From positions 1 to 41,076 of the IMG/VR virus record IMGVR_UViG_3300042861_001151: a stretch of 41,076 nucleotides of DNA, one strand, 5' to 3'. Positions 28,582 to 39,969 of the stretch are shown here, piece after piece. Both the position numbers and the translations under genes were made by a program. This stretch comes from a virus. Position 1 is the first letter of the stretch; each line of letters begins with the position of its first letter. The notes below the pieces were generated by a model. That model was not told the origin of the DNA, did no database searches, and was given only the letters and a program-made list of their open reading frames with translations.

Positions 28582-31368
28582 ATGCCTGTTGATTTTCCAA
28601 TAAATCCATCTATAGGTACAACACATTCCATATCCACAAACGAATGGATATATGATGGTTATGGTTGGAAAGCAAAAGATATTAGTAGTAATTATGTTCA
28701 ATCGTTAAACGGAGTTACTGGTCCTGTTGGTATATCGGCTGGTTCTAATATAACAATTTCTGCATCAGGAAATACACTAACAATTTCTGCGGCAGTGCTG
28801 AGTGGAACAACCGGAGCAACTGGTGCTACTGGTGCTACTGGTAACAATGGAATCAATGGTGTCACTGGTGCTACTGGTTCTCAAGGTGTAACAGGTGCTA
28901 CTGGATCTACAGGTGCTACTGGTGCTACTGGTTCTCAAGGTGTAACAGGTGCTACTGGATCTACAGGTGCTACTGGTGCTACTGGTTCTCAAGGTATTCA
29001 GGGAAACACTGGTGCTACTGGTGCTACTGGTGCTACTGGTTCTCAAGGTATTCAGGGAAACACTGGTGCTACTGGTGCTACTGGTTCTCAAGGTGTAACA
29101 GGTGCTACTGGATCTACAGGTGCTACTGGTGCTACTGGTTCTCAAGGTGTAACAGGTGCTACTGGATCTACAGGTGCTACTGGTGCTACTGGTTCTCAAG
29201 GTATTCAGGGAAACACTGGTGCTACTGGTGCACAAGGTGAACCAGGACAATCTTCAAATTATTACAGTTATAAAGTTCATACGACAACCCAGACTCCACC
29301 TACTGGAAATGGTGAAATAAGATATAATAATGCCACCCAAACTAGTTCAACAATACTATATCTTGACCATTTAGATAACAATGGGGATGACATTGACATA
29401 TTTCTTTCATTGCTCAAGCAAAATGATAATTTAATAATTCAAGATGCCAGTGATTCAAATAATTACCAAACTTGGAGAATTAATTCCGCTCCAACAGTAA
29501 TTTTAAATGATTATACGAGTATTCCAGTAACTGGAATTACTTCTGCTGGAACCGGGACATCAGGATTTTCAAACAACCATCAAGTTTTGTTTATTGTATT
29601 TTCATCTCCAATTGCTACTGCATATGTTGAATCTTTGCGTGGATTAACTGGTGCTATTGGTTTGACCAACGGCAACGGAATTGGTATTAGTGTGTCTGGT
29701 CAGACTATGACCTTCAGTAATACTGGAGTATTGAGTATTGATGGTGGTACTGGGGCTATTACAAATGTTGCGAAAACAAATGCAGCAAACACTTTCAATC
29801 AAACCCAATCAATAGAAGGTTCTGGATCACTTGGCAGTAGTTACTTGACTGAATATGGTGGAAGCGGAGTAACATTTAATTTTGATACTGGCATAGATGT
29901 TGGAAGTCAGCGATGGACTGCGGGTCTTGCTGGTGGATCTAATACTACAATAACATTTCCGACAGATACCGGCACATTAGCACTTACTAAAAATGTTGTA
30001 AGTTCCGTGAGAGGTCTTACTGGACCAGTAGGTTTAACTAATGGTTCTGGAATCGATCTATCTGTCTCGGGAAACACTCTGACAGTTTCAAATACTGGGG
30101 TGTTGAGTTTTAATGGTCTGACGGGAGCTGTTACAGGGGTGACCACAGGAACGGCAAATACATTTGGTCCTCTTCAAAGTTTTACAAATGGTATTAGTTC
30201 AGCAGGAGGAACTTTCAGCGCACTTACAAGATTCACTGCGGGGATTAGTGCTTCTGGTGGTATAACATTTAATTCGGATGTAGATATAAACAGTGCCAAT
30301 ACTCTGACTGTTGCAACCATAACAAATACTGCGGGGGGAAAGTCTCAGTTAGATATTGACAACAGGGGATCTGCTAGAGTTGCTATCGGAGACTACGATG
30401 GCAGTAACCAAAGTACTTATATATTTTTAAGAGATGCTCTCGGAGTTTTGCAGTTATCAAGTCCGTTTGGAGATATCACAATAGGTGATCCAAATGCAAT
30501 TGATACCGGAAATACAATTAGTTATGTGGCTGGTGATGCTGCTTTATATGGGAATAACAGCAGTCTTGATGGATTTTCTAACCTATTTGTAGGATATATC
30601 AGTGCTACCAATGGCATAATTGCTTCTGGTGGTGTTACTCTTTCAGGAACCTTGCAAGGAACAACTGCAAACTTCACAGGACTTGTATCCTCTACTGTTG
30701 GTTTCTCTGGATCTGGAACAAATATTACTGGTGTCGTTACATCATTCAACAATCAGACTGGCGCAGTCACAGGTGTAAGCCGCGTAAACGGATTTACTGG
30801 AGGCATTACTTTTGCCGCGAGTACAGGTATTACCTTTACTGCTTCAGCAGGAACCATAACTCTTTCTACTACAGGTGGTGGCGGTGGATCCAAGACATAT
30901 GCAGTATATACTCCATTAGACAATCAACCACCAGCAGCAAACTACGCAACAATTGACACACGCAATTCCATAATGGTGCTTGACTTTGATGCAGCAACAG
31001 ACGAAAGCGCAGTATTTGTTGGAGTAATACCAGAAGCCGCATCTCTTGGAAGTGGTTTAAAGATTCGTATTAATTGGATGGCAACTTCTGCAACATCGGG
31101 AACCTGTCGATGGGGCGTACAGATAGAAAGAATGAATACGGACGAAGACTCCGATTCATTTGATACTGCTGCAACTGCTGGAAGTACGACAAACGGTACA
31201 TCAGGAATTATTACTACCACAGAAATTACTATAACTACCATAGATTCAGTTGCAGCGGGAGATCCTTTCCGTCTTAAAGTATATCGTGATGCAGACGGAA
31301 CATCAGGAACAGATGACATGACAGGTGATGCTGAACTTGTTTCAGTAGAAGTGCGGAGTGCATCGTAA
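28582..31368 (+). CDS. Collagen-like tail fibre protein 2
   Basis: The 928-aa protein has an N-terminal [13 protein letters not shown]...W.YDGYGWKA attachment-like motif, then a long G-X-Y stalk at about 75-225 ([20 protein letters not shown]). Beta repeats follow that match fibre 1 almost word for word in places (for example [12 protein letters not shown] and TFPTDTGT). The C-terminal 160 residues after a GGGG linker form a distinct beta-rich domain, probably the receptor-contact tip. The differing tips and similar shafts suggest modular exchange. Confidence 0.87.
28885..29199 (+). repeat. Compound 54/45-bp tandem repeats, collagen stalk 2
   Basis: Units of 54 bp ([18 protein letters not shown]) occur at 28885-28938, 28939-28992, 29092-29145 and 29146-29199. 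Between them lie a related 54-bp unit (28993-29046) and a 45-bp unit (29047-29091). The pair-spacer-pair order suggests an internal duplication. All units are multiples of three, so copy-number change keeps the frame. Confidence 0.85.
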
Positions 31369-32514: not shown

Positions 32515-32949
32515 ACTAACCTAAAGATCTACAAAATTCATCCTAATGCGGTTCTTCCAAAACACGCCACACAACAAGCGGCGTGTTTTGATATTTCAGC
32601 GTGTGGCGATACCATAGTTCCTGCACACCACACTATAGCAATTTTAACTGGTATAATTTTAGATATTCCAGTTGGTTACTCTGTGCGTATTCATCCACGG
32701 TCAGGACTGGCCTATAAAAAGGGAATTACTCTTTTAAATGCAGAAGGAGTTATTGATTCTGATTATACAAATGAATTAATGATCCTTCTCTACAATACAT
32801 CTAATGTGCCTTTTGTTGTTAAACACGGTGATCGTATTGCTCAGGGAGAATTGGTAAAAAATCTTGACTATACAATCGAAGAATGCTACACTGCTCCTTC
32901 ACCGAAAACCGACCGTGTTGGTGGTTTTGGTAGCACAGGCGTTCAATGA
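32512..32949 (+). CDS. dut: dUTPase (trimeric Dut)
   Basis: The 145-aa protein has the five dUTPase motifs in order: ACFDISA (24-30), PRSGLAYKKG (62-71), GVIDSDYTNEL (79-89), GDRIAQG (106-112), and the C-terminal arm DRVGGFGSTG (134-143). Motif 1 differs from the usual A-G-x-D-L by Cys-Phe, but the metal Asp is kept. It hydrolyses dUTP to dUMP and PPi, limiting uracil in phage DNA. The next gene (methyltransferase) overlaps it by 4 nt. Confidence 0.95.
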   Translation: MTNLKIYKIHPNAVLPKHATQQAACFDISACGDTIVPAHHTIAILTGIILDIPVGYSVRIHPRSGLAYKKGITLLNAEGVIDSDYTNELMILLYNTSNVPFVVKHGDRIAQGELVKNLDYTIEECYTAPSPKTDRVGGFGSTGVQ

Positions 32950-34235
32950 CTAATATAGAAAAAATAGTTAAAGAGTTTTTTGATTCCGCAGACACGGATG
33001 GAGTTCCCAATTTATCCACACATAAATGGAAAGAATTAAACTCTGATTATACCAAGCAAGAAATCAAAGAAGGTCTTGCTTTGTATATTATCAATCATAA
33101 ACCTAAATTTCCATTTAGAAAAATTGAATTATCTACAGTAAAAAATAAATTTGCATCTTTATCAACAGAAGATCTGTCTCATTATATTATAACGCCAGAT
33201 AAAGATAAGGTACTTGAAAAATATAACGATTACAAATATCCATACTCCAAGCATGGTTTATTTTTAATTGATAATGGTCATTACTATAATGATATAAGTA
33301 ACTATTTTCAACAAGAGAATAGATTGTCTTGTCCCTCTTATGGGTTTGCATCACCAATTGATATTTGGAATGATCATGATTTATTGATGAAGATGAATTG
33401 GATTTTTTGGAGAATGGGAACAACTACAATTAATGAAACAAATATTCGTGGTTCTTTCCGTTTGGGTGCATATGTTGCAACACAATTTAAACCCCATGTC
33501 GCAACAGTTATATATGATCTAAGAGACTCAAAGCATGTTTTGGATTTAAGTATGGGTTGGGGGGATCGTTTGGCTGGATTTTATACATCAAGAGCAACAC
33601 ATTATTATGGTTGTGATCCAAATCCAAAATCATTTGAATTGTATAAACAACAGGTAGTTGCATATGAAAGTTTCTTAGGTAACACTAAATCTTTCTTCCA
33701 TCAAATAGATGAACATACATGGTTATTTGAAGGAATTAAAACAGTCTATATGCAAAATCTTCCTGCCGAAGATAGCAATGTATTTGACCAAGCAGAGATG
33801 GATTGTGTTTTCACCTCTCCTCCTTATTATTCTACCGAACTTTACAATAAGGGCGGAGAAAAGGAAGAGAACCAATCATGGCATCGCTATCCTGATTACA
33901 CCGATTGGTTAAATAAATTCTATCTTCCTGTTATGAAAAGAGCATATGATTGTCTTTCTTATAAGGGTATGATGATGATCAACATCATGGATCCGACTAT
34001 AAAAGGAAAGCGGTATAGAACCTGTGATGAAATGGTAGATTACATTACATCAATTGGTGGTAATTTTATTGGTCAAATTGGTATGAAAATAAAGCAAAGA
34101 CCAAAAAAGATGGAAAAGGGAGACTTGTTGGAACATTTGTCGGCAGATTTTATTGAAAATATTTGGTGTTTTTCAAAGACACAATATAAATGGGTTGCTA
34201 AGAAAAGAGCATCACTTGAAGATTTAATGGAGTAA
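32946..34235 (+). CDS. DNA methyltransferase, SPPY type, second copy
   Basis: The 429-aa protein has an N-terminal region of about 190 residues, then VLDLSMGWGDRLAGF (198-212, AdoMet binding) and TSPPYYSTELYN (290-301, catalytic), followed by YKGMMMINIMD. The order and the N-terminal pattern (FRLGAYVATQFKPHVA) parallel the partial gene at 2-1456 (FRIGYIQPAVNFPPLTA), so they are paralogues that have diverged strongly. The position between dut and a DUF1599 gene places it in a nucleotide-metabolism context. Target base unknown. Confidence 0.82.
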   Translation: MTNIEKIVKEFFDSADTDGVPNLSTHKWKELNSDYTKQEIKEGLALYIINHKPKFPFRKIELSTVKNKFASLSTEDLSHYIITPDKDKVLEKYNDYKYPYSKHGLFLIDNGHYYNDISNYFQQENRLSCPSYGFASPIDIWNDHDLLMKMNWIFWRMGTTTINETNIRGSFRLGAYVATQFKPHVATVIYDLRDSKHVLDLSMGWGDRLAGFYTSRATHYYGCDPNPKSFELYKQQVVAYESFLGNTKSFFHQIDEHTWLFEGIKTVYMQNLPAEDSNVFDQAEMDCVFTSPPYYSTELYNKGGEKEENQSWHRYPDYTDWLNKFYLPVMKRAYDCLSYKGMMMINIMDPTIKGKRYRTCDEMVDYITSIGGNFIGQIGMKIKQRPKKMEKGDLLEHLSADFIENIWCFSKTQYKWVAKKRASLEDLME

Positions 34236-34239
34236 TATT

Positions 34240-34626
34240 ATGACAAGAGAAGAATTATTGGCGTTTCATTCTGAATTGTGCAGCGAAGCTAAAGCATTGA
34301 TGAGTCTAAAAAATAAAGACTACGCAGGTAATGAAGGCACAGAACCTTTTGCAAATTTCACCCGCGTAGAATCTATGGGTATTTGTAAGACAGAACAAGG
34401 ATTTATGGTTCGCCTTACAGATAAAATGAGTAGATTGAGTTCTTTTGTTCGGGCAGGAAAAATGCATGTAAAAGATGAGAGTTTTAAAGATACCTGCATC
34501 GATGTAATTAACTACATGGTTTTATTGGCAGCCTATGTTAGTTCCAAAGATCAAGAACAGAAAAAAGAATTGCTGGTAGAAAATAATAAGAATAGTATTG
34601 ACTCATCCACAAACAAAACGATATAA
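34240..34626 (+). CDS. DUF1599-type nucleotide modification-associated protein
   Basis: This 128-aa helical protein has KNKDYAGNEG, then FMVRLTDKMSRLSSF and DTCIDVINYMVLLAAY, the order of conserved acids and helices in DUF1599 (nucleotide modification-associated domain, PF07659). The family resembles all-alpha NTP pyrophosphohydrolase folds. The GGAG ribosome site at 34230 supports the start. Its 3' end forms the promoter of the polymerase gene: the stop TAA lies inside the -10 box. Confidence 0.8.
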   Translation: MTREELLAFHSELCSEAKALMSLKNKDYAGNEGTEPFANFTRVESMGICKTEQGFMVRLTDKMSRLSSFVRAGKMHVKDESFKDTCIDVINYMVLLAAYVSSKDQEQKKELLVENNKNSIDSSTNKTI

Positions 34627-34636
34627 TACTACCATG
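34598..34636 (+). promoter_or_regulatory. Sigma70-type promoter of 43A, predicted leaderless
   Basis: TTGACT (34598-34603) and TATAAT (34622-34627) are separated by 18 bp. Six nt lie between the -10 and the ATG at 34634. It sits within the last codons of the DUF1599 gene. No Shine-Dalgarno sequence is possible between the -10 box and the ATG. Confidence 0.78.
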
Positions 34637-36112
34637 TCATTTTATACCAATGTATTTTCATACGGAAATAAGATTCTCTATCGGGAAAGAGATGAGTCCG
34701 GTGTATCCACCAAGAATGAAACTTATTTTCGACCTTCTCTATTTGTAAATACAGATAAAAAGACAGACTATAAAAGTATTTTTGGCAAATCTTTAGACAG
34801 GGTTGAATTTGAGAATAAAGATGAATACATGAAATTTATTGAAAGATATTCCGATGTATCTGGATTTGAAATTCATGGCGAAATTCAAGCAGAGTATCAA
34901 TTTATTCGGAACAATTATCCCGATTGTCAGCCAAACTATGATTTGCTAGATATTGCCTATATTGACATAGAAACGACAAGTGAATTTGGATTTCCTAATT
35001 TTCAGTCACCTGAAGAAAAAGTTATTGCAATTTGCATTAGCAGGAAAGACGAACCCTCTGTTGTTTTTTGTCTAGGCGAATACAAGAAACAAAAAGATGA
35101 AATAGTTCACTGCTTTGACAATGAAGATAATCTTCTTTATATGTTTTTAGAATACTTTTCCGGTCGATATCCTGATATCATTAGCGGATGGAGTATTCGT
35201 TTTTTCGATATTCCATATCTCTACAACAGAATAATTCGACTTCTTGGGGAAAAGATTGCAAAGAAACTTTCACCTTGGAATGTCATAAAGGAAAAGATTG
35301 TAGATCGCGGAGTCATAGGAAAACATGTAGTCTATGATATTGTTGGTATTTCGATTCTTGATTATTACGAATTGTACAAAACATTCACATATGTAAATAG
35401 AGAGTCATATAAATTGGATTATATTGCATCTGTCGAATTAGGGGAAAAGAAACTGGACTATACTGAATATGAAAGCATTCAAGAATTTTATCAAAAGAAT
35501 TTCCAAAAGTTTATCGAATATAACATCAAAGATGTCAAACTGGTTGAACAGCTTGACGATAAACTCCAATTAATGAGATTGGCAGTTACTCTTGCATATT
35601 CTGCCGGAGTTAACTTCAATGATATTTTTTCTCAGGTGAAAACATGGGATGTTATCATTTACAATTATTTGGCAAAGAAAAACATAATCATTCCGGCCAA
35701 AAAGCGTTCTAGGAAAGACGAACAATATATTGGTGCTTATGTAAAGGAACCTATCGTCGGTATGCACAAATGGGTTGTATCTTTCGACTTAAATAGTCTA
35801 TATCCCCATTTGATCATGCAATACAATATTTCCCCCGAAACATTGACTGCCGATGGAATGAGAGGTCTTGTTAGTCCCAATGGCGTTCTCAATAACGGTC
35901 CTGTATCCATGAAATCTATAGACGATCTTAGCAGCAAAAATCTATCTATTGCCGCAAATGGAACGACTTATACCAAAGAAAAGCGCGGATTCCTACCAAA
36001 TTTGATGGATGATATGTACAAAGATCGTAAGATGTACAAAACCAAAATGATCCAGGCAGAAAAGCAACTCGAAAAGGTTGAGGCAGAAATAAAACGAAGA
36101 GGACTTGGTTGA
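34634..36112 (+). CDS. 43A: DNA polymerase gp43, N-terminal half (exonuclease, motif A)
   Basis: The 492-aa protein covers the N-terminal and 3'-5' exonuclease domains of T4-type family B polymerase: Exo I is DIETT with D111 and E113 (T4 D112, E114). The palm motif A, DLNSLYPHLIMQYN, is near residue 385. It ends in the fingers helix (about 460-492, YKDRKMYKTKMIQAEKQLEK...). Motifs B and C are absent here and appear in the gene at 38854-39969. ATG 34634 is chosen over the in-frame TTG at 34598, which is part of the promoter, and gives the normal MSFYTNVFSYGN start. The stop overlaps the next -35 box. Confidence 0.93.
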   Translation: MSFYTNVFSYGNKILYRERDESGVSTKNETYFRPSLFVNTDKKTDYKSIFGKSLDRVEFENKDEYMKFIERYSDVSGFEIHGEIQAEYQFIRNNYPDCQPNYDLLDIAYIDIETTSEFGFPNFQSPEEKVIAICISRKDEPSVVFCLGEYKKQKDEIVHCFDNEDNLLYMFLEYFSGRYPDIISGWSIRFFDIPYLYNRIIRLLGEKIAKKLSPWNVIKEKIVDRGVIGKHVVYDIVGISILDYYELYKTFTYVNRESYKLDYIASVELGEKKLDYTEYESIQEFYQKNFQKFIEYNIKDVKLVEQLDDKLQLMRLAVTLAYSAGVNFNDIFSQVKTWDVIIYNYLAKKNIIIPAKKRSRKDEQYIGAYVKEPIVGMHKWVVSFDLNSLYPHLIMQYNISPETLTADGMRGLVSPNGVLNNGPVSMKSIDDLSSKNLSIAANGTTYTKEKRGFLPNLMDDMYKDRKMYKTKMIQAEKQLEKVEAEIKRRGLG

Positions 36113-36147
36113 CAGAGAAACAAGATGATGTTATAATGCTCGTCATG
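36109..36147 (+). promoter_or_regulatory. Sigma70-type promoter of the SPOUT gene, predicted leaderless
   Basis: TTGACA (36109-36114) and TATAAT (36132-36137) are both exact consensus with a 17-bp spacer. Seven nt lie between the -10 and the ATG at 36145. The 43A stop codon TGA (36110-36112) is inside the -35 box. This is the best match of the set. Confidence 0.85.
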
Positions 36148-36696
36148 GAAACGAGAAACATCATCGACCACTACCATTATTGGAATCATGATGCAATACT
36201 TGCCGATTTGGATACGAAAAGAAATAATTTTACTGTCTGTTGTTGTAATGTTGGAAACGACTTTAATATTGCAACGATTATTCGGAACGCAAATGCCTTC
36301 CTTTCTAAAGAAGTTTGGATTTACGGCAGAAAGCAATACGACAGGCGCGGAACAGTAGGTACTCATCTTTACACCAAATTTAAGCATGTAAAGGAAATTG
36401 AAAGTCTTTCGGAACAAATCGAAAGTCTAAAACAGGATTATGGTTGTGTTAAAGTAATAGGAGTAGATAATGTTACTGATGGAACAAGAATTTGTTTGCC
36501 AATTGACTACTACACTTGGGATTCTGAGTGTCACCATCTCGTAATTTTTGGTCAAGAACAAATCGGAATTCCAAAAGAAGTTCTTGACATGTGTGATGAT
36601 GTGGTGTATATTAGACAGTTCGGAACGGTAAGAAGTTTGAATGTTGGTACTGCAAGTGGGATTGTGATGTACGATTATTGCAGTAAAACTCTTTGA
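36145..36696 (+). CDS. SPOUT (TrmH/SpoU-type) RNA 2'-O-methyltransferase
   Basis: The 183-aa protein has the three SPOUT motifs: NIATIIRNANAF (41-52), VIFGQEQIGIPKEVL (133-147) and VRSLNVGTASGIVMYDY (162-178), which form the trefoil knot and AdoMet site. Such enzymes methylate ribose in tRNA (for example Gm18) or rRNA. The start is ATG 36145; the same frame is open to 36109 but that codon is the promoter. The stop is 9 nt before the first tRNA gene, so a tRNA substrate is a reasonable guess. Confidence 0.88.
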   Translation: METRNIIDHYHYWNHDAILADLDTKRNNFTVCCCNVGNDFNIATIIRNANAFLSKEVWIYGRKQYDRRGTVGTHLYTKFKHVKEIESLSEQIESLKQDYGCVKVIGVDNVTDGTRICLPIDYYTWDSECHHLVIFGQEQIGIPKEVLDMCDDVVYIRQFGTVRSLNVGTASGIVMYDYCSKTL

Positions 36697-36705
36697 CATT
36701 TTTTG

Positions 36706-36788
36706 GCCTCGGTGGCGGAATAGGCAGACGCAATAGATTCAAAATCTGTCGTCCTTTGGACATGAGGGTTCGATTCCCTCCTGAGGCA
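36706..36788 (+). tRNA. tRNA-Leu(CAA)
   Basis: The acceptor GCCTCGG pairs with CTGAGGC, with discriminator A. The anticodon loop TTCAAAA gives CAA (reads UUG). The variable arm is long with a GTCC/GGAC stem, so it is a normal class II leucine tRNA. The T arm is GAGGG/CCCTC with loop TTCGATT. CCA is not encoded. Confidence 0.93.
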
Positions 36789-36789
36789 T

Positions 36790-36860
36790 TCCTTTGTGGT
36801 GTAACGGTAACACGGGAGACTTTGAATCTCCTTTTCTTGGTTCGAATCCAGGCAAAGGAA
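36790..36860 (+). tRNA. tRNA-Gln(TTG)
   Basis: Acceptor TCCTTTG/CAAAGGA, discriminator A, D stem GTGT/ACAC, anticodon stem GGAGA/TCTCC with loop CTTTGAA giving TTG (reads CAA). U1-A72 is typical of glutamine tRNAs. It begins 1 nt after tRNA-Leu, so processing must be exact. Confidence 0.92.
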
Positions 36861-36865
36861 CTTAT

Positions 36866-36939
36866 GGCGCGATAGACCAATCGGCAGAGTCAATAGACTT
36901 AAAATCTGTGTAGTGTGGGTTCGAGTCCCACTCGCGCTA
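36866..36939 (+). tRNA. tRNA with anticodon TAA (Leu) but short variable loop
   Basis: Acceptor GGCGCGA/TCGCGCT (with a G1-T72 pair), discriminator A, D stem GAC/GTC, anticodon stem ATAGA/TCTGT and loop CTTAAAA giving TAA (reads UUA, Leu). The variable region is only 5 nt (GTAGT) before the T stem GTGGG/CCCAC. Bacterial leucine tRNAs have a long variable arm, so this is a class I body with a leucine anticodon. The fold is otherwise sound. Confidence 0.85.
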
Positions 36940-36945
36940 TTCAAT

Positions 36946-37090
36946 GTATGGTGTCTGGTAAAGCAGACTAGGACAATCAACCGGCCGGTGCTTGTCTGAA
37001 AAGATGAAATATAAGGTCGCATTAACGGGCAACGAGGTTCGTAGAACTTTGCCTTATATTAGTCGAATGGGTGCAAGTCCCTCACCATAC
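36946..37090 (+). ncRNA. tRNA-like structured RNA, 145 nt, unknown family
   Basis: It lies between two tRNAs. The 8-bp closing stem GTATGGTG (36946-36953) pairs with CACCATAC (37083-37090). A D-like hairpin GTCTG/CAGAC (36953-36968) has loop GTAAAG. The last hairpin GGG/CCC (37069-37081) has the loop TGCAAGT, with U and A in T-loop positions 54 and 58. In between are two further hairpins: GGACAA/TTGTCT (36971-36997) enclosing ACC-GGCC-GGT, and AATATAA/TTATATT (37008-37060) enclosing GGCAA/TTGCC. No anticodon arm is evident. I cannot name the family; no open frame fits. Confidence 0.65.
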
Positions 37091-37099
37091 TTAACTTAT

Positions 37100-37171
37100 G
37101 CGGATGTAACTCAATGGTAGAGTGCTAGCCTTCCAAGCTTGCTGTTGAGGGTTCGAGTCCCTTCATCCGCT
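37100..37171 (+). tRNA. tRNA-Gly(TCC)
   Basis: Acceptor GCGGATG/CATCCGC, discriminator T, D stem ACTC/GAGT, anticodon loop CTTCCAA giving TCC (reads GGA). The anticodon stem CTAGC/GCTTG contains one T-T mismatch. T arm GAGGG/CCCTT with loop TTCGAGT. Confidence 0.9.
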
Positions 37172-37174
37172 TTT

Positions 37175-37300
37175 ATGAGTAGAAAACATAGTGCAGGAAA
37201 AGGCGATTCCTTTAGAAAAGTAGATAAGAAAAAGTATGATAAGAATTTTGAAGATATCTTTGGTAAGAAAAACAAACGACCAAAGATAAATAAAAAGTAA
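37175..37300 (+). CDS. Small basic conserved-type phage protein, 41 aa
   Basis: The short ORF begins 3 nt after tRNA-Gly with MSRKHSAGKGDSFRKVDKKK and ends FEDIFGKKNKRPK. This MSRKHSAGKGD...KKKYD.N...IFGKK pattern is familiar from tiny proteins of other phages, although no function is known to me. It is highly basic. No clear ribosome site is visible upstream. It lies between tRNAs 37100 and 37306. Confidence 0.65.
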   Translation: MSRKHSAGKGDSFRKVDKKKYDKNFEDIFGKKNKRPKINKK

Positions 37301-37305
37301 GATTT

Positions 37306-37378
37306 TCCTCTGTAGCTCAGTCGGTAGAGCAGAGAGCTGTTAACTCTCGGGTCACTGGTTCGAATCCAGTCGGAGGAG
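37306..37378 (+). tRNA. tRNA-Asn(GTT)
   Basis: Acceptor TCCTCTG/CGGAGGA with discriminator G, D stem GCTC/GAGC, anticodon stem GAGAG/CTCTC with loop CTGTTAA giving GTT (reads AAC and AAU), T stem CTGGT/TCCAG region with loop TTCGAAT. Fully canonical. Confidence 0.95.
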
Positions 37379-37381
37379 TTT

Positions 37382-37501
37382 ATGAACGATTTTGTAATTA
37401 TATTAATAATGGTTTTTTTTGTTATAGTTGGTGTTGCTGCAACACACGAACTATATAATCTCATTTGTATTTTGTTGAATAAAATTTATGACCGACGATG
37501 A
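37382..37501 (+). CDS. Small single-pass membrane peptide, 39 aa
   Basis: The ORF encodes MNDFVIILIMVFFVIVGVAA followed by THELYNLICILLNKIYDRR: one hydrophobic helix and a basic end. The only ribosome site, GGAGG, is the 3' acceptor strand of tRNA-Asn (37372-37376), 5 nt before the ATG. It overlaps the next ORF by 14 nt in another frame. Function unknown. Confidence 0.5.
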   Translation: MNDFVIILIMVFFVIVGVAATHELYNLICILLNKIYDRR

Positions 37502-37757
37502 ATTAAAATCTTGTCACGAAATTGTAGAGGATGCCATTCATTGGTATTCTGAATTTTTTCATTGTGCAAGTTGGTTAATTGATATTGAATATATTGTTCT
37601 TGATAAGTTCAAGACCAACGATAGACATATGCAAGAATTTAGGCAATATCAATTAGATGCAATGAAGAAATTAATTGATGAAGGAAAATGGGTTCGTTGG
37701 TGTGATACCTGTCAAGGAAAAACTATAACAGAACTATATAATATTACCGGAGAATAG
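37488..37757 (+). CDS. Hypothetical protein, 89 aa
   Basis: The helical, acidic protein has no recognised family. It contains HWYSEFFHCASWLIDIEY and near the end WCDTCQG, a Cys pair. Its last codons and stop (TAG, 37755-37757) fall inside the 5' end of tRNA-Pro (37748). No ribosome site is clear upstream. It may be a regulatory or host-takeover small protein; this is not supported by motif. Confidence 0.55.
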   Translation: MTDDELKSCHEIVEDAIHWYSEFFHCASWLIDIEYIVLDKFKTNDRHMQEFRQYQLDAMKKLIDEGKWVRWCDTCQGKTITELYNITGE

Positions 37758-37821
37758 CTCAGTTTGGTAGAGCGCCTGCTTTGGGAGCAGGAAGTCGTCA
37801 GTTCAAATCTGGCTTCTCCGA
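37748..37821 (+). tRNA. tRNA-Pro(TGG)
   Basis: Acceptor CGGAGAA/TTCTCCG with discriminator A (C1-G72 is typical of bacterial proline tRNAs), D stem GCTC/GAGC, anticodon stem CCTGC/GCAGG with loop TTTGGGA giving TGG (reads CCA). Its first 10 nt overlap the end of the upstream ORF. Confidence 0.93.
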
Positions 37822-37837
37822 CTGAAATGGAGTGAAT

Positions 37838-38041
37838 ATGGAATACACCGCAGGACAAGGTTATAAAGATGGTCATCGTGATCGTAACGAAGGAAAGGCC
37901 AATATGGCCGCTTTTGGTCGTGTTACAGAAAATACAATGTATTGGCACGAATACGATATGGGTTGGAAGCAAGCAGACTCAGAAATAATGCAAGAAGCAA
38001 GAGAAAGTTCTCGCAATGGCAGAAATTTTCTGGTAGACTGA
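37838..38041 (+). CDS. Hypothetical small protein, 67 aa
   Basis: ATG 37838 is chosen because GGAG lies 5 nt upstream; an in-frame GTG at 37832 overlaps that site. The protein has GYKDGHRDRNEGK and later YDMGWKQADSE, a pattern seen in small phage proteins with paired G-Y/W-x-x-G/A motifs. No function known. It ends 4 nt before the metallophosphoesterase start. Confidence 0.62.
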   Translation: MEYTAGQGYKDGHRDRNEGKANMAAFGRVTENTMYWHEYDMGWKQADSEIMQEARESSRNGRNFLVD

Positions 38042-38048
38042 TTGCATG
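38034..38048 (+). promoter_or_regulatory. Possible extended -10 element before the phosphoesterase
   Basis: TG-G-TAGACT ends 6 nt before the ATG at 38046, the same spacing as the five leaderless promoters. The -35 region (TCGCAA) is poor. It may be a weak extended -10 promoter or chance. Confidence 0.3.
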
Positions 38049-38642
38049 ATCTGGTTCACTAGCGACACACATTTCAGCCACAATAATATTCTTCACTATA
38101 CCAATAGGGAAAAGTATTTTAAAAACGTGAATGAAATGAATAAAGCACTTATTCATAATATAAATGATTGTGTCTCTAAAAAAGACACTCTTTATCACTT
38201 GGGTGATATTTCTCTAGGAAAAGGCAAACATTGGACTTCAAGTATTAATAATATCTTTTCAAATATTAAATGCGAGAATATTCATGTGGTTCTTGGTAAC
38301 CATGATCCTTCCATTCGTTCAGAACATGTTAATAATAAGCATTTTAAGTCAGTTGAGCACTATTGTGAAATAAATATTGGTGGTTATGTGCCAAAGGAAC
38401 TTAAGAAATTCAATATTTGCATGTACCACTACCCAATGACGACATGGAACAGAAAATGCCCAATACACATACATGGTCATTGTCATGGTAAATTGGGATT
38501 TATTACCTCTCCATTTAGCGAGGGATACATTCGTTATGATGTTGGCGTTGATTCTGAAGGATTAAACTATAGACCGATATCGGTGGTTCAACTAATGGCA
38601 AATTACACAAGTCAAATATCGAAAGATTCCAAAAATGATTGA
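38046..38642 (+). CDS. Calcineurin-like metallophosphoesterase
   Basis: The 198-aa protein has the five metallophosphoesterase blocks: DTH (D7, H9), GD (53-54), GNHD (84-87), H128 in MYHYP, and HGHCHG (143-148). These bind two metals and hydrolyse phosphoester bonds. Phage members of this size are common but substrates are not established (nucleotide, RNA end or protein phosphate). It overlaps the next small ORF by 8 nt and lies between the halves of the polymerase. Confidence 0.88.
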   Translation: MIWFTSDTHFSHNNILHYTNREKYFKNVNEMNKALIHNINDCVSKKDTLYHLGDISLGKGKHWTSSINNIFSNIKCENIHVVLGNHDPSIRSEHVNNKHFKSVEHYCEINIGGYVPKELKKFNICMYHYPMTTWNRKCPIHIHGHCHGKLGFITSPFSEGYIRYDVGVDSEGLNYRPISVVQLMANYTSQISKDSKND

Positions 38643-38826
38643 AACAATACAAATTATATTGACTTCTATTGTTTGTTATGGGATTTATAGAATAGCGTAT
38701 TCGAGAGGATACGATAATGGTCAACACATAGGATTTACTCATGGTCTATGGAAGGCATCTGAAAGAAAATCTTTACGGATGAAACCATCCATTCCTGCAA
38801 AAAAGCAATATAGTTTAGTTGACTGA
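38635..38826 (+). CDS. Small membrane-associated hypothetical protein, 63 aa
   Basis: The first 20 residues form one hydrophobic helix (TIQIILTSIVCYGIYRIAY), followed by a polar tail with YSRGYDNGQHIGFTHGLWKA. No family is recognised. It starts inside the phosphoesterase gene and its TGA stop (38824-38826) overlaps the last base of the 43B -35 box. Confidence 0.55.
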   Translation: MIETIQIILTSIVCYGIYRIAYSRGYDNGQHIGFTHGLWKASERKSLRMKPSIPAKKQYSLVD

Positions 38827-38856
38827 TATTTTAGTTTGTGATACTATACATCTATG
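38819..38856 (+). promoter_or_regulatory. Sigma70-type promoter of 43B, predicted leaderless
   Basis: TTGACT (38819-38824) and TACTAT (38842-38847) are separated by 17 bp. Six nt lie between the -10 and the ATG at 38854. An in-frame TGA at 38839-38841 just before the -10 box excludes longer starts. The -10 matches TATAAT at four of six positions. Confidence 0.7.
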
Positions 38857-39969
38857 GACTTGAATAAACTAACAGACCAAGAACTGTTGGATTTACAACA
38901 TAAACTTGAATATGATATTTCACAATATCATAACTTTCAGTTGGTGAAGAAGATTCAATTGAATTCTGCATATGGCGCAATTGGAAATGAGTATTTCCGA
39001 TATTACAGCACCGAAGTTGCAGAGGCTATTACATTGTCGGGTCAATTGTCGATTCAGTATATTATGAATGAACTGAATTCGTTTTTGAATAAAACCCTAG
39101 AAACAACAGATATAGATTATGTCATAGCATCCGACACAGATTCTGTGTATTTGAATATGGGCGCATTTGTTGACAAATTCATACCAAAGAACAAAAATAC
39201 AGAGGATACTGTGGCTCTTTTGGACAAGGCTGCAAATACGATTATTCTTCCATTTATCAAGAAGAAGTTCGATCAACTTGCTCTTAAGATGAATGCATAT
39301 GAGAATAAAATGGTTATGGGTAGAGAAGTAATTGCAGATAAGGGAATTTGGACTGCAAAGAAGCGGTATATGTTGAATGTATGGGATAGCGAAGGAGTGC
39401 GATATTCTCAACCAAAATTAAAAATCAAGGGAATTGAAACCACTCGCAGTTCTACGCCAGAAGTTGTCCGTGACAACTTAAAATTGGCAATTGATATTAT
39501 TCTGAATAAAACAGAAGATGATCTAATTACATTCATTGAAACGGTGAAAAAAGACTTCTATAGTTATCCTGCCGAGAAGATTGCGTTTCCTAGAAGCGTA
39601 AACGGTATGGATAAGTACAAGGACAGTTATTACATCTACAAGAAGTCTACTCCTATTGCGGTCAAGGGTGCGTTAATTTATAATCACCATGTCAACAAGA
39701 ATGGTCTTGATAAGAAGTATAAATTAATTGGAGAGGGAGATAAAATTAAATATCTTCACTTGAAGAAACCAAATCCACTTGGCGGAATGAAAGGCGAAGA
39801 TCAAATCATTGCATTTCCTTCTAAGTTGCCAAAGGAATTTGAATTGGAGGGATACATTGATTATGGAACGCAATTTGAAAAGTCGTTTCTAGATCCCCTA
39901 TCCAGTATTTTGAATGTTATCGGTTGGAATTACGAAAAGAAGAACACATTGGAAAGTTTATTTTCATAA
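38854..39969 (+). CDS. 43B: DNA polymerase gp43, C-terminal half (motifs B and C)
   Basis: The 371-aa protein begins with a helical segment (1-30) and has motif B KKIQLNSAYGAIGN (32-45), motif C ASDTDSVYL (92-100, catalytic D94 and D96), KKRYMLNVWD and LKIKGIETTRSSTP, all as in T4 gp43. It ends NTLESLF, similar to the gp43 clamp-binding tail. Together with 43A (492 aa) it totals 863 aa, near T4's 898, so the split removes little. The split lies in the fingers between motif A and motif B. It should assemble with 43A non-covalently. Confidence 0.93.
   Translation: MDLNKLTDQELLDLQHKLEYDISQYHNFQLVKKIQLNSAYGAIGNEYFRYYSTEVAEAITLSGQLSIQYIMNELNSFLNKTLETTDIDYVIASDTDSVYLNMGAFVDKFIPKNKNTEDTVALLDKAANTIILPFIKKKFDQLALKMNAYENKMVMGREVIADKGIWTAKKRYMLNVWDSEGVRYSQPKLKIKGIETTRSSTPEVVRDNLKLAIDIILNKTEDDLITFIETVKKDFYSYPAEKIAFPRSVNGMDKYKDSYYIYKKSTPIAVKGALIYNHHVNKNGLDKKYKLIGEGDKIKYLHLKKPNPLGGMKGEDQIIAFPSKLPKEFELEGYIDYGTQFEKSFLDPLSSILNVIGWNYEKKNTLESLFS

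Follow-up and report, generated by a model that had tools for sequence, protein, structure and literature searches.

A T4-type DNA polymerase gene split at the fingers tip with cargo genes in the gap, and a candidate endonuclease cassette at the same site in its relatives

Introduction

How does a phage come to encode its DNA polymerase in two separate pieces with other genes between them, and can such a polymerase still work? We address this question for gene 43, the gene of the T4-type family B DNA polymerase (gp43), in the IMG/VR virus record IMGVR_UViG_3300042861_001151. In the following, the window means this whole virus record of 41,076 nucleotides (nt), read as one strand from 5' to 3'. 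In an initial annotation, which was based on the sequence alone, gene 43 was described as split in the fingers at 34634-39969. We here analyse the two halves, their relatives in metagenomic phage sequences, and the contents of the gap.

Results

Gene 43 is split at the fingers tip

The following features of gene 43 were found in the window:

34634 to 36112, + strand: N-half of gene 43, an open reading frame (ORF) of 492 amino acids (aa) with the exonuclease domain, palm motif A and the first fingers helix
38854 to 39969, + strand: C-half of gene 43, an ORF of 371 aa with the second fingers helix, motif B, motif C and the thumb
38962 to 38988, + strand: motif B, NSAYGAIGN, uninterrupted; relatives with an endonuclease have a stop and a micro-insertion after 38985

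The two halves add up to 863 aa and are 2,741 nt apart. In Pfam, the N-half matches the exonuclease domain and positions 21-149 of DNA_pol_B, and the C-half matches DNA_pol_B from position 146 onward. Among PDB sequences, the N-half matches residues 184-500 of RB69 gp43 (E 2e-74) and the C-half residues 528-897 of a T4-type gp43 (E 1.3e-56). As the matches of the N-half end at residue 500 and those of the C-half start at 528, the break is located at the fingers tip, that is, between two antiparallel helices. The window thus contains both the exonuclease and the polymerase motifs of a T4-type gp43, on two ORFs that stand in gene order and are broken inside the polymerase domain. Residues D111, E113, D192, D300 and D385 of the N-half and K33, D94 and D96 of the C-half, which we take to correspond to the catalytic residues of RB69, show no variation in alignments of 17 and of 23 sequences. 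All catalytic motifs are present. An AlphaFold model of the N-half resembles RB69 (predicted local distance difference test, pLDDT, 77.5; Foldseek E 1e-37) and ends in a terminal helix at residues 453-488. The split of gene 43 in the window is real and, judged from its sequence, the gene is most probably functional.

A broken or misassembled gene, with another polymerase doing the work, is a very improbable explanation. The window record is a 41-kb fragment and the same phage could thus encode a second polymerase elsewhere. Against this, a search of 13 longer related records yielded neither a second family B polymerase nor one of family A (in one of these records, G011, family B was not matched even once), and the catalytic residues are invariant. 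A dead polymerase was rejected because of this conservation together with the lack of another polymerase in the longer related records. Furthermore, the whole arrangement is repeated at 99% identity on a separate contig (L003). An assembly error, which had been raised as a way to overturn the split, is unlikely because the identical junction recurs in other contigs.

The split characterizes a clade of uncultured phages

To place the window among its relatives, loci were collected from IMG/VR with the C-half of the window (best 80 of 232) and in two further scans (best 80 of 113 and best 80 of 162). In many relatives the halves are apart, with spacers that range from 184 nt (L015, L016) to 6,330 nt (L033); in others they are fused. 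In a tree of 131 C-parts, the window belongs to a clade whose 34 rows are all split (support 89), and the state changes between fused and split at least 18 times over the tree. Among cultured phages, Synechococcus phage ACG-2014f has two annotated gp43 coding sequences (CDS) and S-SSM4 has gp43 in one piece. The spacer contents vary and include the methyltransferase (25 loci), various tRNAs, a 2OG-Fe oxygenase, phosphoesterases and many hypothetical genes. According to these comparisons, a split gene 43 with cargo in the gap is a property of a large clade of uncultured phages.

Breaks at other positions of gp43 were also observed. At L040:4376-9104 (a contig shared with L082), gp43 is in three pieces with an extra break just after motif A, where an ORF looks by eye like a GNAT protein with a zinc ribbon; the fingers gap of the same locus contains an HNH-endonuclease-like ORF and a tRNA-Leu. 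Stops or short frame breaks were found at L162:3194-3201 and L193:3351-3364 (profile positions 246/249 and 659/663), and a gap of 804 nt at L321:4105-4910 (profile positions 587/589). The extra breaks in L162, L193 and L321 may be errors or biology.

Relatives encode a GIY-YIG endonuclease in the same gap

A search for motif B followed by GGTTA yielded 42 stretches, 41 of which have a stop right after motif B. In 30 of these 41 stop-type loci, the fingers gap contains an ORF of about 235 aa that ends about 90-120 nt 5' of the site. All of the five gap ORFs that were searched against Pfam matched GIY-YIG or SegE-type GIY-YIG domains (E values between 2e-6 and 5e-3; three of the matches fall short of the curated cut-offs), and their alignment shows a YIG-type motif with conserved Y, G, H and E. 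With this endonuclease alignment as the query, a scan that is free of the GGTTA bias returned 492 loci, of which the best 80 were analysed and 52 have gp43 matches. No homing endonuclease was found in the window itself, where the top profile match has an E value of 0.45. The initial annotation was thus right about the missing endonuclease; as a feature that distinguishes the window from known split genes it did not hold up, since relatives carry a GIY-YIG gene in exactly the same gap.

The endonuclease co-occurs with altered sites. Among 105 distinct loci chosen by gp43, 102 have neither endonuclease nor insertion and three have both, and an insertion is present in 19 of the 22 distinct loci chosen by the endonuclease; these are raw counts of related and thus not independent loci, and they exclude loci with less than 400 nt upstream and loci whose site was missed by the regular expression. 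Endonuclease loci that lack an insertion have S or C within three motif-B residues in 13 of 14 distinct cases, many of which come from one part of the tree and are not 14 independent events. Among 115 distinct uninterrupted loci that lack the endonuclease, 110 read A-[IVL]-G at the same three residues, and AIG is also found at the unaltered site of the window. Some loci depart from this pattern. L317 has the endonuclease, no insertion and an unchanged site. Another tally lists 16 dereplicated endonuclease rows without a break, among them L307, which has a 6-nt insertion. Of nine distinct loci with an apparent insertion without endonuclease, only L241 and L249 lack the endonuclease by other scans; the remaining ones show it there or, in the case of L259, repeat L235, which has an endonuclease remnant. 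At L249:281-1060, next to an 8-nt motif-B insertion, the GIY-YIG gene is replaced by an ORF with weak helix-turn-helix and DUF559/REase-like matches, perhaps another homing nuclease.

A third kind of change is found in Aeromonas phage Aes120 and Escherichia phage G2285, where the endonuclease ORF is followed by a group I intron before the remaining gp43. In Aes120 the intron, read by eye, begins within codons after NSLYGA. The site changes fit an endonuclease that targets motif-B DNA and whose carriers would have to alter the site. No endonuclease was found elsewhere in six longer split records, a search that had no positive control and is hence uninformative.

Stops after motif B are probably overcome by recoding

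In some relatives, NSAYGAIG is followed by a stop, and the polymerase sequence resumes at once, often in a different frame (for instance at L233:9752-9790 and L143:5724-5760; also in L301, L307, L311, L313, L321, L322 and L338). When 76 loci, including several locus ids from a single contig, are grouped by their take-off codon, stop, landing codon and distance, 20 distinct architectures result. The distances are 4, 5, 6, 8, 9, 10 and 11 nt, and the take-off codons are GGT, GGA, CTT, GCC and GCG; GGT is given by design in the GGTTA search, and the other codons stem from the endonuclease scan. The stop directly follows the take-off codon in all 20 architectures, which was partly selected by the search pattern. 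The landing codon is synonymous with the take-off codon in 19 of the 20 and identical in only some. The exception, GGT-TAG to AGC (seven loci), resembles a +1 shift. Some synonymy would be expected if the insertions arose beside the ancestral codon. As there are cases with Leu and Ala codons, the synonymy is not tied to an ancestral Gly.

The sequence past the stop is under purifying selection: omega (the ratio of nonsynonymous to synonymous substitution rates) of the C-part ranges from 0.03 to 0.13 for full-length pairs with defined synonymous divergence (dS). Over the first 30 codons after the stop, omega ranges from 0 to 0.09 in pairs with defined dS, and one 13-codon pair reaches 0.20. In 36 of the 41 stop loci, no ATG, GTG or TTG occurs in the downstream frame before the conserved N codon; the other five are of the 4-nt type. 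Because of this selection past the stop and the mostly missing start codon, a single continuous polymerase product made by recoding is likely. The same two observations speak against separate initiation after the stop. Plain readthrough or one kind of frameshift was rejected as a single mechanism since the insertions need all three frames. Hopping of the peptidyl-tRNA across the stop would account for all three frames, and it is the only mechanism known to us that would do so. No cultured phage with a micro-insertion was found among the best 30-40 of about 2,500 phage records per search.

The proposed cassette has moved between gp43 genes and its leader resembles that of the window

Near-identical alleles with and without the endonuclease exist. 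L143 has the endonuclease, a split gene and a 9-nt insertion, whereas L140 is fused and uninterrupted; the two are 95% identical before the gap and 92% after it, and L143 has 832 nt in place of 27 nt. The end of the endonuclease ORF and an insertion are present in L051 and absent from L020, which is 98% identical downstream. Furthermore, the stretch just 5' of the insertion has a dS of 0 to 0.11, compared to 0.7 to 1.8 for the C-parts (L265/L245, L253/L106, L248/L266), and block identity falls or rises at the insertion point. The low dS before the insertion, the diverged C-parts and the steps in identity show that gp43 genes have exchanged a unit whose end is the insertion.

The C-half of the window starts with a leader of the kind found in such cassettes:

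38854 to 38919, + strand: C-half leader, MDLNKLTDQELLDLQHKLEYDI, not in fused relatives; it resembles the leader 3' of the homing endonuclease in cassette-bearing relatives

In a comparison with the cassette leaders, the score is above 0 for 36 of 37 distinct leaders of split genes that lack the endonuclease, and below 0 for all 51 fused genes. The window leader, with a score of 4.5, is thus of the cassette type, to a modest degree.

An alternative explanation is that a tRNA gene or tRNA cassette entered at the fingers tip and split the gene, and that endonucleases invaded this tolerant site later. The shortest spacers would fit such an origin, as they consist of one tRNA-Leu(UAA) directly after the N-half stop and a short ORF (L015:2763-2946 and L016); tRNA-Leu(UAA) also adjoins the N-half stop in L054 and L071. 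Moreover, L106 carries the cassette and the 99% identical L105 is split without endonuclease and insertion. We nevertheless consider this origin unlikely, given the direct change between a fused and an endonuclease-split gene in L143 and L140, the tree, in which cassette loci and fused relatives are neighbours at several places, and the cassette-like leader within the split clade.

The gap of the window holds RNA genes and other cargo

Besides the two halves, the following promoters and genes were found at the locus:

34598 to 34627, + strand: sigma70-like promoter of the N-half, TTGACT-N18-TATAAT, 6 nt 5' of the ATG
36109 to 36137, + strand: consensus sigma70-like promoter (12 of 12), overlapping the N-half stop and serving the methyltransferase
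36145 to 36696, + strand: SpoU-type RNA methyltransferase (PF00588, E 1.6e-22, Pfam query 36127-36696), leaderless ATG at 36145
36706 to 36788, + strand: tRNA-Leu(CAA) (ARAGORN and Rfam, as for all tRNAs below)
36790 to 36861, + strand: tRNA-Gln(UUG)
36865 to 36940, + strand: tRNA-Leu(UAA), the most frequent spacer tRNA
36946 to 37090, + strand: tRNA-like structured RNA, from folding and covariation, no Rfam match
37100 to 37171, + strand: tRNA-Gly(UCC)
37305 to 37379, + strand: tRNA-Asn(GUU)
37488 to 37757, + strand: small ORF, family in 8 loci of the spacer, no Pfam match
37748 to 37822, + strand: tRNA-Pro(UGG)
37832 to 38041, + strand: small ORF, family in 12 loci of the spacer, no Pfam match
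38046 to 38642, + strand: calcineurin-like phosphoesterase (PF00149, E 6.9e-5)
38635 to 38826, + strand: small ORF, family in 13 loci of the spacer, no Pfam match
38819 to 38847, + strand: sigma70-like promoter of the C-half, TTGACT-N17-TACTAT, 6 nt 5' of the ATG

Six tRNAs, a structured RNA and a methyltransferase had been proposed for the 2.7-kb spacer, with a promoter for each half, and all of these were recovered. The pattern TTGAC[AT]-N16-18-TANNNT followed by ATG within 4-9 nt occurs five times on the + strand of the window and never on the - strand, compared to a mean of 0.34 over 200 mononucleotide shuffles. The N-half, the methyltransferase and the C-half account for three of these sites, which lie 6-7 nt from the ATG. 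The strong sigma70-like promoters, all on a single strand, are at 2886, 32476, 34598, 36109 and 38819. Several window genes with a promoter 4-9 nt before the ATG appear to be leaderless. Promoter-like sites before the C-half were seen in 17 of 41 loci; the 41 loci include nine fused genes.

The structured RNA at 36946-37090 is more stable than shuffled sequences (z -2.4), and 14 of its 40 predicted pairs have double compensatory changes among eight related sequences. It has an acceptor arm, D-like and T-like arms and a long extra arm, is conserved in relatives, and belongs to no Rfam family. A short ORF of the MSRKH type is located at 37178-37300 and is also found in the spacer of L015. Upstream of gp43, the window encodes a DNA methylase-like protein (32946-34235, PF01555) and a protein with collagen-like GAT/GST repeats (28582-31368).

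Rejoining of the halves by RNA or protein splicing, so that they act as one chain, is hardly to be expected here, even though gp43 of Aes120 and G2285 contains group I introns. No intron family was found in the spacer of the window by Rfam at gathering scores, nor by a permissive search over 36600-38000, and these empty searches, which address the RNA splicing named in the initial annotation, speak against an intron of group I or II. Each half ends in a short helix sequence where the two are parted, and no intein-like extension was seen by eye, which speaks against a split intein. Furthermore, the halves have separate start codons and promoters, and the length and content of the spacer are variable.

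Discussion

We consider it probable that the window encodes a working two-chain family B polymerase, that the split is the site of an endonuclease cassette, and that the window is a later state without endonuclease or insertion. Each half would be transcribed from its own promoter, and the two chains would reassemble through the antiparallel fingers helices; because these helices are cut only at their tip, the active site would stay whole. In relatives, the gene of a free-standing GIY-YIG homing endonuclease sits at the fingers tip; the upstream part of gene 43 ends in front of this gene, and the downstream part opens with a new start codon and a leader of some 20 residues. In uninterrupted alleles, the endonuclease may cut the conserved DNA of motif B, which lies about 100 nt downstream, so that repair would copy the cassette in. 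For the lineage of the window, we infer that the endonuclease was lost and the gap was filled with tRNA genes, the RNA methyltransferase and other cargo. We read the split of the window as a decayed cassette mainly because its C-half leader is of the kind that travels with the cassette.

Several observations weigh against this explanation. The window leader scores 4.5, compared to a median of 21 for cassette leaders and -2.2 for the helix of unsplit T4, and the likeness may be partly convergent or ancestral. The window has no remnant of an endonuclease. Cassettes have also entered genes that were already split (L106 compared to L105), and thus a split can come first. In excerpts of PMC2988022, Aeromonas phage 44RR is split without an endonuclease. 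Lastly, the C-half modelled alone gave a poor model (pLDDT 66.8). Poor models of separate halves would be expected if the palm needs both chains, and they are no proof.

A wider claim, to which we give slightly better than even chances, is that GIY-YIG endonuclease and a minimal bypass of 4-11 nt after motif B form a widespread mobile cassette. The insertion would confer self-immunity, the ribosome would leave the message at a codon for Gly, Leu or Ala, hop over the stop and land on a synonym of that codon, and the window would be a decayed remnant of the cassette whose gap is now a cargo site.

Split gp43 genes as a kind are already known. The T4-type polymerase of the Aeromonas phages 25, 44RR and Aes120 (43A/43B; Petrov et al. 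2010, via PMC2988022) is encoded in two ORFs as in the window, and the comparison drawn in the initial annotation was apt. For phage 25, the split gp43 co-purifies and is active, according to excerpts of PMC2988022. Like the relatives of the window, Aes120 (record JN377898) has a GIY-YIG endonuclease ORF between the halves. The window differs from the Aeromonas phages by its tRNAs, methyltransferase and other cargo and by the lack of an endonuclease, and from Aes120 by the lack of a group I intron in the C-half. The Synechococcus phage ACG-2014f (Atlauavirus) shares the two gp43 CDS and a C-half leader of the window's type, whereas its spacer is about 0.5 kb with small ORFs and its C-half is 54% identical. 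What is new is the cargo-filled gap and the cassette biology of the relatives at the same gap.

The relatives also resemble mobA and gene 60 of T4, as far as the latter are described in excerpts of PMC3014915 and PMC5009743. In both, a gene that is essential for replication is split by that of an endonuclease, and the downstream part has, after a Gly codon, an insert with a stop. A codon that may match the take-off codon stands at the end of the insert, and in the relatives it is mostly synonymous and in only some cases identical. In contrast to T4, the relatives have these features in gene 43 rather than 39/60, with a GIY-YIG instead of an HNH endonuclease, inserts of 4-11 nt instead of 50, and several take-off codons, and their bypass is a prediction from sequence. 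With distances of 4-11 nt, they lack a gap of tens of nt with a take-off stem-loop as in gene 60. The window itself has neither the endonuclease nor the insert. Bonocora et al. reportedly treated mobA and the bypass as a mobile cassette in 2011.

The layout of Aes120 and G2285 is shared with collaborative homing, in which a free-standing endonuclease acts with a group I intron (excerpts of PMC2988022 and PMC10448857). Most metagenomic relatives differ in having a micro-insertion or a missense change instead of an intron, and the window has none of these. Excerpts of PMC5009743 present the gene 60 insert as a possible protection against the homing endonuclease. In the corresponding parts of a 2010 review, translational bypassing is called apparently unique to T4 gene 60, and it is asked whether other T4-related genes use bypassing (PMC3014915). 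Parts of a 2016 review state that natural in-frame stop hopping is not known, and a title cited there names +5 and +6 hops, by its title alone (PMC5009743). In searches of openly licensed PubMed Central papers, bypass-like insertions in phage DNA polymerase genes appeared in no title or abstract listed.

Since alleles with and without the cassette can be almost identical, the question of how the split arose becomes testable. Furthermore, one endonuclease family with one presumed target comes with three kinds of change, namely insertion, missense change and intron, in or near one site. The gp43 micro-insertions are thus direct candidates for bypass beyond T4 gene 60 and for natural in-frame stop hopping. 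If our interpretation is true, natural short stop-hops and bypasses would occur in a T4-related gene other than gene 60 of T4.

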